A model generated the notes under the pieces. The model ran no database searches. It was not told where the DNA came from and saw only the letters and a program-made list of their open reading frames with translations. From assembly GCA_963921795.1 (NCBI GenBank), contig OY997650.1, positions 920,650 through 984,649 on the forward strand: a stretch of 64,000 bases of DNA, in the 5' to 3' direction. A program made the translations under genes and the position numbers. This DNA comes from Nannobrachium achirus. Lineage: Eukaryota; Chordata; Actinopteri; Myctophiformes; Myctophidae. Below, piece by piece: positions 3,168-59,243 of the stretch. Position 1 is the stretch's first letter. Each line of letters starts with the position of its first letter.

Positions 3168-6100
3168 GTGAGGTTCATGTCTCCTCCGTCTGTCTGTCCG
3201 TCCGTCCGTCCGTCCGTCCGTCCGTCTTAAAATATATCGCTTCAAATTAATCTTTGTTTATTGAGCTTTTTGTAACTCATCGAGAGATCCAAAAGCATAA
3301 AGAAAAAAAAAAAAAAAAAAACATGTGATGGATGCACCTGGGACGTATCCTCAGTGATGCAGCCCAAGCTCATCAGGGTTTCGGGTCTCTCAACATCATA
3401 CCCCTCACCTGGGTGACCCAGCCGGGGTTGATCAAGTCCCGACTTACGTCCCAGTAGCTCCCCACGATCAGTCCCATTAGGGAAAGACAGGACCATTCAC
3501 TCCACTACTCCAGAACTACTCTGCCAAGACTAGGGAAAGAAGTCTGGCGCTTGGAAGGACCAGGCTCTGTGGATTTACTCCTGTCCGGGCCCCTCCTACG
3601 TCTCACCAGGTCCTCTCTGCTCTCACCAGGTCCTCTCTGCTCTCACCAGGTCCTCTCTGCTCTCACCAGGTCCTCTCTGCTCTCACCAGGTCCTCTCTGC
3701 TCTCACCAGGTCCTCTCTGCTCTCACCAGGTCCACTCCTGCTCTCACCAGGTCCAGGACCTGTGCGTTGCACCATACTTTAGCCCCGCCCCCAGACATTT
3801 CACTCAGGAGTGGTGGATTCCTAAGCTGTAATGGTACTGCAGGCTCCACCTGGCCCAACGGTGGTACTGCATGCAGGCTCCACCTGGCCCAATGGTGGTA
3901 CTGCAGGCTCCATCTGGCCCAACGGTGGTACTGCATGCAGGCTCCACCTGGCCCAACGGTGGTACTGCATGCAGGCTCCATCTGGCCCAACGGTGGTGCT
4001 GCATGCAGGCTCCGCTTGCAGCTTGAATGGCCCTCCTAAAGGCCTATTACCATGGATCACATCTTCTTTGGAGAAACTCCATAAAACTACGGTTCAATCT
4101 ACATAAATCTGGATAGTGGACGTCCCATTAGTCCCAGGGTTAGATCCATCAACAGCACATTTTCTTAACATTTTAAGGGGAACTTAAATAAATATCTTGA
4201 ACATAAACTGAACAATGACTTCCTGGTGTGTGCTGGTTTTCCTTCATTTCAGACCAGAGTCAGAAGACCTGGCAACCCAGCAGCACCGTGACGGTTAAAC
4301 AAGAACCTGAAGATTCTTACACCAGTAAGTTCTGTCTCTAAGTCTATGGGCCCTATTATGATCCAGGTCTTATGCCTTATGCCTTAACTTCTTTACCCTT
4401 TTTTCACTATTTTGAAAAACATTTTTAAATACTTCAAATGCTGATCTACATCTGCACATTGTGAACTTGCAGATCAGCTATTTGAAATATTTAAAAAACA
4501 AAAACAAAATAGTAAAATCACACCCGTGTGAACTGAGCGGTGGTTTACCCACCAACCACCAACTAACTGTACTGTATACTGTACTGTACCTAACTGTACT
4601 GTACTGTACATATTCTGTGTTCTATATCTATGAATTCGATGTGTTCTAGATCTATGAATTCTGTCACCTCCCCCCCGCCCCCCCCCCCCAGGCTAGTCTC
4701 AACAGCACCCTCTTACCCACCAACCCCTCCCCCCTTCCCCCCTGTGTGTGTGTGTGTGTGTGTGTGTGTGTGTGTGTGTGCGTGCGTATGTGTGTGTGTG
4801 TGTGCCTGGCCTGGCCTGAAAACAGCGCCCCTCCCTTAACATGTGTGGTCATAAAAGGTACTACCACAGGCTTGAGGCTACATACAGACCCACCCACATA
4901 CACGGATACACGGATACACACACGGCCACTCTATGGAGACGGTGTGACCACCGCTCAAAAAAAGGCAATGAAGTTAAGGCATAAGGCATAAGACCTGGAT
5001 CATCATCATAATAGGGCCCTAAGTGTCTGTCTCTCTCTCTCTCTCTCTCTCTCTCTCTCTCTCTCTCTCTCTCTCTCTCTCTCTCTCTCTCTCTCTCTCT
5101 CTCTCTCTCTCTCTCTCTCTCTCTCTCTCTCTCTCTCTCTTTCTTTCTTTCTTTCTTTCGTGTTGTCATCACCTTATTAACGATTTGGTACACAATTATC
5201 AAGGCAGTTATTAAATATGTAGCCATCATAAAAAAAGAATGCAGATTTCAGATTTCCAAATAGTGTGCAAAGACCTTCTATAGCAATGGTCTTCAACAGG
5301 GGGTCCAGGACTCCTAGGGGGTCCTCAGAATCACTACAAGGGGGGTCCTCCAAATCTTTGTGTGAAAAACCTTTTTTATATATTAAACAATTTATATATA
5401 AAACAACTTTAGCCAAAAATAGCAGATCTACAAGCTCACAATGCCTCGTGCTGCGAGGCGTTGTGAGCTTGTAGATCGGCTATTTTCGGCAAAGAGCTTT
5501 GGTGTAGAGGGGAAAAAGAGCAGACTAAGTACAGAGTGAAAGGTCAGGTTTATTAAGTATTGATGGTTCAAGTGGTTAAATATCTGAAAACACAAATTGA
5601 CATGCATCCAAAATACACTGATGATTGTGCTGTCAAACAATGAAACTATATGGAATCTATGAACAGGTTGTGGGGGTCCCTGCTTCATCTCTCTCTCAAC
5701 TAAGGGGTCCCTGCTTCATCTCTCTCTCAACTAAGGGGCCCCTGCTTCATCTCTCTCTCAACTAAGGGGTCCCTGCTTCATCTCTCTCTCAACTAAGGGG
5801 TCCCTGCTTCATCTCTCTCTCAACTAAGGGGTCCCTGCTTCATCTCTCTCTCAACTAAGGGGTCCTTGGCCTGAAAACATTGAAGACCCCTGGTTTAGCA
5901 GCTTCCCTGCTTACTTCACGCAGACAGACGTAAAGCGGTGTTGACTGAAGCAGTAAGCCACAAGAGGCGAGTGGTTACCTGTATTTTACACCGGCTGAGA
6001 GGCGTAAAATACAGGTAACCACTCGCCTTTTGTGGCTTATTTCTTTTCTAAAATGGTTACAATATGGCAACATGAAAAATCATAGACATGTACCAATTAA

Positions 6101-9100
6101 AACTGTTCTATGTCACTAATAATTCACTATAAGGTCCAGTGATGTTACTAGGTTTTCAATGTAATGGGTCCCGGGACCCACAGGTGGTCATTCAAATGGG
6201 TCCCAGAAAAGTTTTATGAGTCCTCAATACAATGTTTTCGAGCGCTGTGAGCTTGTAGATCGGCTATTTTCTAAATGTTTGCCTATTTCTTATATGTATT
6301 TTACAATTTGGCTAATTTTTGAACTTAGAACTACTTAAACTACTAAAACATGTGCCCCTAATGAATTTGGGCGCGCAAAATGGCGTCGGACGTCGGTGGA
6401 ATCAAAACATTGACGTTTCTATCGCCTGTTTAAGACTTTCTACGTGGATTTTATTTGTGTTAACGTAGGGTAAAGTAGGATGCTTTCACCCATGAACAAT
6501 GGTGGTGTCTGTGGAATTTTAAAATGTTTTTCTTTTACCGCGACCCGGTAAATTATTTTAACACTAGCCCTTACCCCTTCAAAGATATGAGCTCCAAAAT
6601 GATGTGCAGTGTGTGGGTTATGGGATGTGCACTGTGCATACAGTATATGAGGGATGGAAAGTAACTGTAACTGGTGCTTGCATGATAATATGTAGGAGCA
6701 TCAATGTAAGAAATACCTGTTTCGTTTAATGGCTAGGTTTGATATAAACTGATTCAAGGTGTGGGTTATAGTCTCATATACCACAGCAATTAAGGGAAAC
6801 CAGCCAATCAGAATCAAGGAATGGAACTAGCCGTTTTAGAAATGTCTTTCTGTGTTTCTTGTTGTACGCAGCGAGACGACCGGGGTCACGTAAACGCTCC
6901 GCCCCCTCCTACCATCAATACGACGACTCAGACTCCGAGGAGGAGGAGAAGGTTTTCCGCAGCGACGCCAGAGAGAGAGCCGCCAAACGCAACTCCACCT
7001 GGGCAGACCCTTTCTCTAGGAGAGACCCTCCATATAAGGACCGCTCTACTGCACCGGGCCAGGAGTAAGATACCTTTATTAACCCTTATTAACCCTAACC
7101 CTTTCAACTCCACCTGGGCAGATCCCTTCTCTAGGAGAGACCCTCCATATAAGGACCGCTCTACTGCACCGGGCCAGGAGTAAGATACCTTTATTAACCC
7201 TTATTAACCCTAACCCTTTCAACTCCACCTGGGCAGATCCCTTCTCTAGGAGAGACCCTCCATATAAGGACCGATCTACTGCACCGGGCCAGGAGTAAGA
7301 TACCTTTATTAACCCTTATTAACCCTAACCCTTTCAACTCCACCTGGGCAGACCCTTTCTCCAGGAGAGACCCTCCATATAAGGACCGATCTGCACCAGG
7401 ACAGGAGTAAGATACCTTTATTAACCCTTATTAACCCTAACCCTTTCAACTCCACCTGGGCAGACCCCTTCTCTAGGAGAGACCCTCCATATAAGGACCG
7501 ATCTGCACCAGGACAGGAGTAAGATACCTTTATTAACCCTAACCCTTTATTAACCCTAACCCTAAAGATACCTTTATTAACCCTAACCCTAAAGATACCT
7601 TTATTAACCCCTTCTCCAGGAGAGACCCTCCCTATAGGGACCGTTCTGCACCAGGACAGGAGTAAGAACACTGATACCCCAGGGGGTCCACAGATGATTA
7701 ACTTAATGTGCAACACTGTTTTCTCACTCAACAGTAAACAAACCAACATACAGTTTAAGTGTATAGAGGGTATCTGCACATTTCTAAAGTGACAATTTAA
7801 GGACTTTTTAATACCTCTAAAATGACTAATTAAACATTGTCCAACTTGTCAAATATTAGAGGTAGAAATTGTGAAAATAGCAGATCTTTCACAATTCTCA
7901 CTCAACAGTAAACAAACCAACATACAGTTTAAGTGTATAGAGGGTATCTGCACATTTCTAAAGTGACAATTTAAGGACTTTTTAATACCTCTAAAATGAC
8001 TAATTAAACATTGTCCAACTTGTCAAATATTAGAGGTAGAAATTGTGAAAATAGCAGATCTTTCACAATAGAACCGTGTTGTATGAAATGTAATGCCTCA
8101 ACTCTTAGTGCTCGTCGGGGGGATTTTTTATTTTTAAAATCCCCAGTTAAAATATGATTATTTGAATAGGGCCTATTTGAACAAACAAACGAATGAATGA
8201 ATTTATAGGACTCTGTATTGATAATGATATTCTGTTCATTATTTTAACAGTATTTATCACAGTAATGATATTTTGTTCATTATTGTAACAGTATTTATCA
8301 CAGTAATGATATGATCATTATTTTAACAGTATTTATCACAGTAATGATATTCTGTTCATTATTTTAACAGTATTTATCACAGTAATGATATGATGTTCAT
8401 TATTTTAACAGTATTTATCACAGTAATGATATGTTCATTATTTTAACATATTTATCACAGTAATGATATGATGTTCATTATTTTAACAGTATTTATCACA
8501 GTAATGATATTCTGTTCATTATTTTAACAGTATTTATCACAGTAATGATATTCTGTTCATTATTTTAACAGTATTTATCACAGTAATGATATGTTCATTA
8601 TTTTAACAGTATTTATCACAGTAATGATATGTTCATTATTTTAACAGTATTTATCACAGTAATGATATGTTCATTATTTTAACAGTATTTATCACAGTAA
8701 TGATATGTTCATTATTTTAACAGTATTTATCACAGTAATGATATGTTCATTATTTTAACAGTATTTATCACAGTAATGATATGTTCATTATTTTAACAGT
8801 ATTTATCACAGTCACAGTAATGATATGATGTTCATTATTTTAACAGTATTTATCACAGTAATGATATGTTCATTATTTTAACAGTATTTATCACAGTAAT
8901 GATATGTTCATTATTTTAACAGTATTTATCACAGTAATGATATGTTCATTATTTTAACAGTATTTATCACAGTAATGATATGATGTTCATTATTTTAACA
9001 GTATTTATCACAGTAATGATATGATGTTCATTATTTTAACAGTATTTATCACAGTAATGATATGATGTTCATTATTTTAACAGTATTTATCACAGTAATG

Positions 9101-58938: not shown

Positions 58939-58939
58939 A

Positions 58940-59243
58940 GTAAAAGTATGAAAGTATTGGCATCAATAAGTACTTAAATTACCAAAAGTAAAAGTACTAA
59001 ATGTTTGAAAATAGCAGATCTACAAGATGCGTTGTGAGCTTGCAGATCGGCTATTTTCAAATGACCACCATATAAAATCAGGCTTAAGTGGTATGTTTTA
59101 TAATATTGTAATTTAGATCTGTAAAGTAACTAGTAACTAAAGTTTTCAAATAATTGTAGTGGAGTGAAAGTACAACATTTTTTGATTCGAAATGTAGTGG
59201 AGTAGATGTACTTAGTAAATGTACTTAGATACTTTACACCACT
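58940..59243. mobile_element. MITE of the TTTACACCACTG family with palindrome 59002-59063
   Basis: The right end ACTTAGATACTTTACACCACTG is typical of a common hAT-like family. The centre holds TTTGAAAATAGCAGATCTAC...TGCAGATCGGCTATTTTCAAA, a shortened shared palindrome. The left end merges into the TG run. Confidence 0.6.

Follow-up and report, generated by a model that had tools for sequence, protein, structure and literature searches.

A 73-nucleotide hairpin common to miniature transposable elements with unrelated ends in Nannobrachium achirus, and a candidate palindromic source element

The window analysed here, 64,000 nucleotides (nt) of DNA from Nannobrachium achirus (assembly GCA_963921795.1, contig OY997650.1, positions 920,650 to 984,649), contains many copies of one palindrome, located inside miniature inverted-repeat transposable elements (MITEs). 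An earlier note on this DNA had claimed that the palindrome is highly repeated and common to elements with unrelated ends, and this is borne out by 23 arms in the window and 133,994 complete palindromes in the genome. The carriers belong to three classes, with 8-bp duplications (hAT-type, five terminal families), with TA flanks (elements X and U) and with a 3-bp duplication (element Q). On balance we lean towards the view that the palindrome is the retained core of an old palindromic PIF/Harbinger-like MITE, Q, which was taken into other MITEs. The host letters X, U, V, W, Y, Z, G, S, T and Q are labels of the present analysis, and numbers from L001 on denote stretches of the same genome.

A search of the genome (1.66 Gb, 564 contigs) for the arm AGATCTACAAGCTCACAACGC with up to 2 mismatches gave 198,528 forward and 197,356 reverse matches, 395,884 altogether, whereas the reversed pattern gave 1 + 0. 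The pattern for complete palindromes consisted of a pair of 11-base half sites separated by 13 free bases; at most 3 mismatches were allowed in its 22 fixed positions, and its reversed form gave 3 matches. Of the 13 free bases the outer 5 + 5 are complementary to one another at 85 of 100 positions, as judged from the first 20 among 100 listed palindrome sites. Twenty-five stretches sampled by position (L009-L033, 236,797 bases without N) contain 43 complete palindromes and 111 arms, those of the complete palindromes included. A window arm was counted if it differed from any of seven arm variants at no more than 4 positions; a looser 15-mer scan of the window (up to 3 mismatches) found 27 sites, whereas 20 order-1 Markov sequences had 1.75 on average. 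Nine window sites had been listed as complete or near-complete. Five of them were paired as full palindromes by script (5425-5477, 14467-14509, 24485-24537, 26592-26644 and 58011-58064), but 59003-59058 is shortened, 35955 and 46909 have lost one side, and 17209-17262 is degenerate. Exact matches to GATCTACAAGCNCACAAYGC were absent from viral and prokaryotic contigs, and the sole Rfam match in the window at the gathering threshold was the UnaL2 long interspersed nuclear element (LINE) 3' element (RF00436) at 48894-48948 (+).

The limits of the unit were read from 155 of 157 arms with usable flanks (window and L001-L033), which form 100 flank clusters. Counted from the GATC, positions -9 to -7 hold 0.51-0.85 bit of information, followed outward by 0.27 at -10, 0.05 at -11 and 0.18 at -12, and because of this drop at -10/-11 the hairpin unit is taken to consist of about RAAAATAGCMGATCTACAAGCTCACAACGC, a 13-base centre and the mirror of RAAAATAGCMGATCTACAAGCTCACAACGC, or about 73 nt. 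The centre is mostly self-complementary (161 of 190 outer positions in 38 copies), and the same spacing is found in 38 of 56 complete palindromes. Folded as DNA, three good window copies reach -28 to -38 kcal/mol and a decayed one -19.6 kcal/mol, with 0 of 200 shuffles as good in each case. In an alignment of 38 ungapped copies (37 distinct), 92.4% of cells are paired and both sides have changed in 17 of 34 pairs. The covariation score is 0.247, compared to 0.129 for shuffles, none of which reached it in 500. Slid versions, which are the better control because kinship among sequences inflates such scores, gave 0.07 or less. That the repeats arose by chance or as an assembly artefact is scarcely credible: the controls gave 1 and 3 matches against 395,884 arms and 133,994 palindromes, the compensatory changes were equalled in 0 of 500 shuffles, and the Markov, reversed-pattern and shuffle controls together rule this explanation out.

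Hosts G, V, W and T have exact 8-bp duplications and YAGGG-type inverted ends, as expected for hAT MITEs, and Y has the same with one mismatch. Exact duplications flank two CAGGGGTGTCAC elements (L023:6724-7215, TGTATGGA; L015:5733-6252, TGTAGACC) and a TAGGGATGGGACRATA element (L031:1051-1463, GGAGGGAG), and a CAGGGGTCTTCA element (L004) has a duplication with one mismatch. Each of the two CAGGGGTGTCAC elements, with ends CAGGGG(T/C)GTCAC, carries a subterminal palindrome near either end, the two being inverted relative to each other, and in the L023 copy the right palindrome is the reverse complement of the left except for one base. Four elements of the window had been credited with exact 8-bp duplications; three are convincing (24258-24658, CCAATGGG; 35732-36198, GGTTAGAG; 50811-51235, TCGGACGA). 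The duplication scan gave a further exact hit at 28059-29134 (TGCAGTGC, ends matching at 9/11, span of 1,076 bp), which is taken for chance, and the duplication of an element near 46603-47240 differs, by eye, at 2 of 8 bases. Other carrier repeats are one of 205-215 bp in L007, with copies 94-99% identical, and L010:4641-4805. Between host groups the mean identity of the core is 0.776, compared to 0.333 for the best pairing of flanks (ungapped).

Element X has the ends TCGTCRYTGTCGGG and the palindrome at its centre. Of 11 aligned copies, 9 are flanked by TA on either side, the exceptions being the window copy at 9601 (TA/TG) and that of L031 (TT/TT), and four copies share one host. By these flanks and its inverted ends X may be classed as a TA-type MITE with a putative TA duplication. 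It is nested in a CAGGGTTCCCC element (window 35732-36198), a CAGGGGTTCCCA element (L015:1695-2269) and a CAGGGACGTGC element (L031:6641-7198). The unrelated ends reported earlier are real, but the CAGGGTTCCCCAAT and CAGGGGTTCCCAAAC families have the hairpin only via nested X, which explains two of the terminal families that had been distinguished. A further terminus regarded as a family end, TAGGGATGGGCC, was found only at 15862 (+) and 28859 (-) with 1 mismatch allowed. Element U, about 180 bp long and TA-flanked (TCCACGAGTTTCC...), carries an older palindrome, and TA was found on both sides in L029 and L032. At L032:7511-7693 U is inserted, with its palindrome, in a W (CAGGGGTGTCAC-type) copy; three other W copies are without U.

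Element Q was recognised from a query of 571 bp around L023:5921, which matched over its full length only itself and one local duplicate (98%). Among the 40 scored out of 777 candidates, the remaining 38 have their matches within the palindrome; these cover no more than 87 nt at the core in 36 cases and extend over the longer Q in two. Following these two longer matches, 14 full-length copies were compared. Q is about 150 bp long, has the ends AGGG/AGCC-TGATTTATAC and is palindromic from end to end, with the common hairpin at its centre; in the fold of the copy L034 (-67.4 kcal/mol) one end pairs with the other. In 6 of the 14 copies the same 3-mer flanks Q in direct orientation, exactly 4 nt beyond each TGATTT end (TTA four times, TAA and GAA), compared to a mean of 0.36 over 121 offset pairs. 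Since this 3-bp duplication matches the PIF/Harbinger pattern as given in the available part of PMC2836001, Q may be classed as a PIF/Harbinger-like MITE by the duplication (usually TWA), its short length and its terminal inverted repeats. A further twelve full-length copies share 77-81% identity with L034, and Q is therefore old.

The hosts thus have three kinds of ends with unrelated sequences, and lack the one duplication length and the related termini that a single origin would leave. Several are hAT-type with 8-bp duplications, but not all are: X and U are TA-flanked and Q has a 3-bp duplication. Descent of every host, by deletion, from a single ancestral hAT element that already carried the hairpin is very improbable, and as a general account it is refuted by the three kinds of ends. 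The doubt previously expressed about one hAT family with a single ancestral palindrome was justified.

If the palindrome derives from Q, then Q, or a shortened Q, would have entered the interiors of several MITEs by nested insertion and by the passing on of internal segments. The composites would multiply by means of the hosts' own transposases, of the 8-bp hAT type and the TA type, and carry the hairpin along. The arms of Q outside the central 73 bp would be lost in most hosts, while the hairpin would be kept, its arms changing in concert, until single copies lose it by deletion. We infer that Q preceded the composites, that it is the source also where a host has no visible Q arm, and that the composites were multiplied by the hosts' own transposases; the core was presumably kept because a strong hairpin helps MITEs to persist or amplify.

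This origin is supported by the end-to-end palindrome of Q with its 3-bp duplication, by the Q copy at L023:5921 with its nearly single-copy flanks, by hairpin variants that track the host family, by the arm remnants in reduced copies and by the insertion of U in a W copy, as well as by traces of Q beyond the core. A Q profile run on the window and L001-L033 found the core in most carriers, the match usually ending there; 9 matches on the left and 11 on the right go well past the core (the Q copy of L023 included). Outer arms or ends of Q are visible in host Z (L022, L049-L052), in the CAGGGACGTGC group (L053-L056), in S and in L028, and the right arm of host S still reads CCAAGGTATAAAATAGGGC followed by TAA. 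Alignment scores of at least 22 to the Q arm were obtained for 8 of 98 flank clusters near the hairpin (two being the sides of the Q copy at L023:5921), compared to 3 of 392 distant and 0 of 98 reversed flanks. In gapped alignment to the Q end, 13 of 100 near flanks and 1 of 99 far flanks have p values of 0.05 or less.

Several observations speak against an origin from Q. No Q arm is visible in most hosts: profile matches end at the core edge on the left in 68 of 82 cases (Q positions 36-44) and on the right in 63 of 84 (110-118). As decay alone should leave ragged edges, this sharp edge weighs against retention of a Q core and is the observation that it explains least. Scores of at least 16 to the Q end show only a modest excess (13 of 98 near, 27 of 392 far and 4 of 98 reversed flanks), and an ungapped profile of the Q end was not enriched next to hairpins (Mann-Whitney p 0.51). 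The exact 3-bp duplication is absent in 8 of the 14 Q copies. Arm columns 10 and 64 of alignment A1 (A or C just outside GATC) do not covary and are unpaired in 16 of 37 copies, although their neighbours covary; this one position also weakens arm-to-arm conversion as the sole source of the covariation. A search with the S flanks joined without the palindrome matched palindrome copies in two separate parts and ran uninterrupted across the joint in four copies, and a second search from one of these four gave further palindrome-free copies. Among the 16 of those listed that were read, 12 contain a remnant, two are ambiguous and two (L058 and L064) have none. These two join at TAAAGTGG, as a site before insertion at TAA would. 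Their clean joins could equally be precise excision, which is known for PIF/Harbinger, or deletion, and as pre-insertion sites they are weak evidence.

Loss of the hairpin follows a recurrent deletion route in S, where at least four palindromes (L059 and L072-L074, by eye) were deleted between direct AAATAGC repeats flanking the hairpin. Thirteen copies of X, Y, V and W with a reduced palindrome were inspected, several of them chosen for an arm recognised beforehand. At least 14 nt of an arm survive in 12 and, by eye, about 10 nt in the thirteenth. As reduced copies mostly keep such remnants, these four families probably had the hairpin from about the time they were founded. Furthermore, the nearest core neighbour belongs to the same host group in 27 of 32 copies, compared to 6.1 expected, the groups being defined by shared flank words with G lumped with W and V with Y. 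Since hairpin variants track the host family in this way, ongoing conversion between families looks rare, and the earlier suggestion of gain by conversion is disfavoured.

To explain the sharp core edge, either maintenance inside a host must be confined to the hairpin, or the 73-bp hairpin must itself be a module that is mobile or under selection. We hold it possible, if doubtful, that the hairpin is such a separable module, mobile by a hairpin-dependent route or a cis-acting part used by hAT, TA-type and PIF/Harbinger transposase systems or by host repair or replication machinery, so that MITEs acquiring it multiply. The idea in its stricter form, that the hairpin itself is mobile or transferable as a nuclear counterpart of mitochondrial GC clusters, enters DNA transposons by hairpin-dependent repair or template switch, and has Q as just one host, appears unlikely. 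It would account for the strong arm covariation and for the sharp limits of the unit (0.51 bit at -9 falling to 0.05 at -11), with most Q-profile matches ending at the core edge. It would also fit the host-specific inverted symmetry that extends a few nt past the unit (own 0.36-0.64, cross 0.23-0.34 at -10 to -16), such as a hairpin-primed or palindrome-targeted event could leave. This symmetry could reflect either hairpin-primed copying of the flank or insertion at small palindromes. However, hairpin variants track the host family, and target duplications at the palindrome edges, the check proposed in the earlier note, did not appear. In 26 representatives no direct duplication was found at equal offsets for n=6 or 8, and direct repeats of n=2-4 were near the shuffled means (largest excess 3, compared to 0.6, at n=3). 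With free offsets a 6-7-mer occurred in just 2 of the 26, and the short direct repeats expected at the edge of a GC-cluster-like palindrome are thus lacking. Nor was a solo 73-bp unit seen among four palindromes queried with their flanks: one, in near-single-copy DNA, is Q, two lie in repeat families, and for the fourth (L014:1720-2080) the 39 other matches come from a young repeat adjoining the palindrome. The mobility suggested earlier is met with in Q and in the carriers X and U.

Alternatively, MITE interiors may be exchanged by gap repair or template switching, with the hairpin riding on larger swapped segments and the palindrome as a frequent switch point. The flank type TATTTTATACYTTRGCTATT next to the hairpin is common to S, W, L028 and, by eye, L017 despite their different ends, and X, in this case as a nested element, is present in three hosts of hAT type. 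The coral CMITEs, going by the accessible text of PMC2872659, are a published instance of different ends around the same interior. Yet similarity mostly ends at the edge of the hairpin and not at that of a larger segment, and the spread of X and U needs no exchange because both have their own ends and TA flanks. We judge such exchange to be quite unlikely. The features of the window are given in Table 1.

Table 1. Palindromes and their host elements in the window
Feature	Position	Strand	Remarks
Complete 73-nt palindrome, host G	24475..24547		hairpin -38.3 kcal/mol, z -13.8
Host G, hAT-type MITE TAGGGCTGTCAC...	24258..24658		8-bp duplication CCAATGGG; second copy L016:1413-1837
Complete palindrome, host Y (CAGGGGTCTTCAA ends)	5415..5487		
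Host Y element	5288..5888		limits approximate, from GGTCTTCAA ends; better copy L004:1255-1716, duplication CGATAGAT/CGGTAGAT
Palindrome with shorter loop, element X, right X flank replaced	14457..14519		
Element X, TA-flanked, within CAGGGGTTCCCA hAT-type element, left arm only	25140..25319	+	
Element X, palindrome internally deleted, within 35732-36198	35848..36076	-	
hAT-type element CAGGGTTCCCC..., X carrier	35732..36198		8-bp duplication GGTTAGAG
Element X, only right half of palindrome	41154..41344		
Element X, rearranged half palindrome (46909-46934)	46828..47004	-	
Element X, palindrome deleted down to AAAACAGCAGATCT	9601..9777	+	
Host V palindrome, ACATGC/GCATGT variant, without outer right arm	26582..26654		
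Host V, TAGGGCATTCA ends	50811..51235		8-bp duplication TCGGACGA; right palindrome half 50914-50933
Palindrome in element with right flank reading inward from CAGTGGTTCTCAACGTGTGG	58001..58074		
Shortened palindrome, host S (element ending TTTACACCACTG)	59003..59058		
Relic of Q right arm and end (...ATATAAAATCAGGC then TTAA), host S	59059..59087		
Degenerate palindrome	17199..17265		E 8e-10
Old palindrome, by eye resembling that of TA-element U	49399..49447		
Right half of Q-like palindrome, host Z	39874..39949		reaches Q position 146 of 153; E 6e-14
Right half, Y-type flank	28719..28774		
Single arm	6242..6271	-	
Degenerate, shortened palindrome	4440..4475		

The window also contains two long inverted repeats, at 1200-1605 (167-nt arms, 95%) and 54913-55219 (153-nt arms, 86%), and no arm of the present palindrome was found inside them. 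Minisatellites are numerous (30013-33289, 21281-22807, 43873-44913 and others), for example with a 19-bp unit repeated 172 times, a 30-bp unit 51 times and a 45-bp unit 23 times. A coding-like unit is repeated at 2836-3114, 43024-43641, 45182-45274 and 46372-46517, and its frame at 43024-43641 has no Pfam match. A 425-aa open frame at 59586-60863 (+) encodes a MULE transposase domain (PF10551, E 1e-14) and a FLYWCH zinc finger (PF04500, E 4e-8). Elsewhere in the genome, palindrome-like monomers form a head-to-tail tandem array at L002:1459-1640.

The closest published case found is that of the coral CMITEs, judging from the available portions of the article (Wang et al. 2010, PMC2872659). These have been described as piggyBac-like, with TTAA duplications and some 1,600 copies in A. 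millepora, and a 75-nt interior is conserved across six of their families with different ends. Variants of that interior correlate with the family except in one case, and a role in transposition was suggested, the origin being unknown (PMC2872659). The hairpin hosts likewise have an interior common to families of different ends, with variants tracking the family, but they do not all belong to one superfamily; the available description of CMITEs includes no palindrome, whereas here there are a hairpin, three kinds of ends, 133,994 complete copies and a candidate source element. Going by the accessible part of PMC2836001, Q resembles mPing and Harbinger3N_DR, PIF/Harbinger MITEs of the Tourist type, in being short and in having terminal inverted repeats and a 3-bp duplication that is mostly TTA or TAA, but differs in being palindromic over its whole length. 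Made1 (hsa-mir-548) is described in the portion seen of PMC1784062 as a nearly perfect palindromic MITE of two 37-bp arms and a 6-bp spacer that forms a stable hairpin when transcribed. It is similar in size to the 73-nt unit but is a complete stand-alone element, whereas the hairpin here lies mostly inside other elements.

Other short palindromes that appear mobile are the Volvox palindromic repeats, which insert into each other, and the yeast mitochondrial GC clusters, which merge (PMC4478555 and PMC2670323, as far as their available text goes). These spread in organelle DNA, and the Volvox authors judge nuclear copies to be inert; the four commonest yeast GC clusters are flanked by short direct repeats, whereas none were found at the unit edge here. 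Bacterial repetitive extragenic palindromic (REP) sequences are likewise dispersed in high copy number but are prokaryotic and 20-40 bp long (PMC3733652, in part). The hAT MITEs of cod, to the extent that PMC12368964 could be consulted, are not the same thing as the present hairpin carriers. A literature text search for three short arm pieces gave no transposable-element title among the matches listed.

The interiors of MITEs are usually regarded as irrelevant filler. In the present case, MITE families with three kinds of ends have in common an interior that is better conserved than their flanks, shows compensatory changes and numbers well above 100,000 copies. This conservation makes it a testable question whether a hairpin inside a transposon helps its multiplication. 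Furthermore, the palindromes constitute a natural set for the study of survival, concerted change and deletion of long palindromes in animal genomes.

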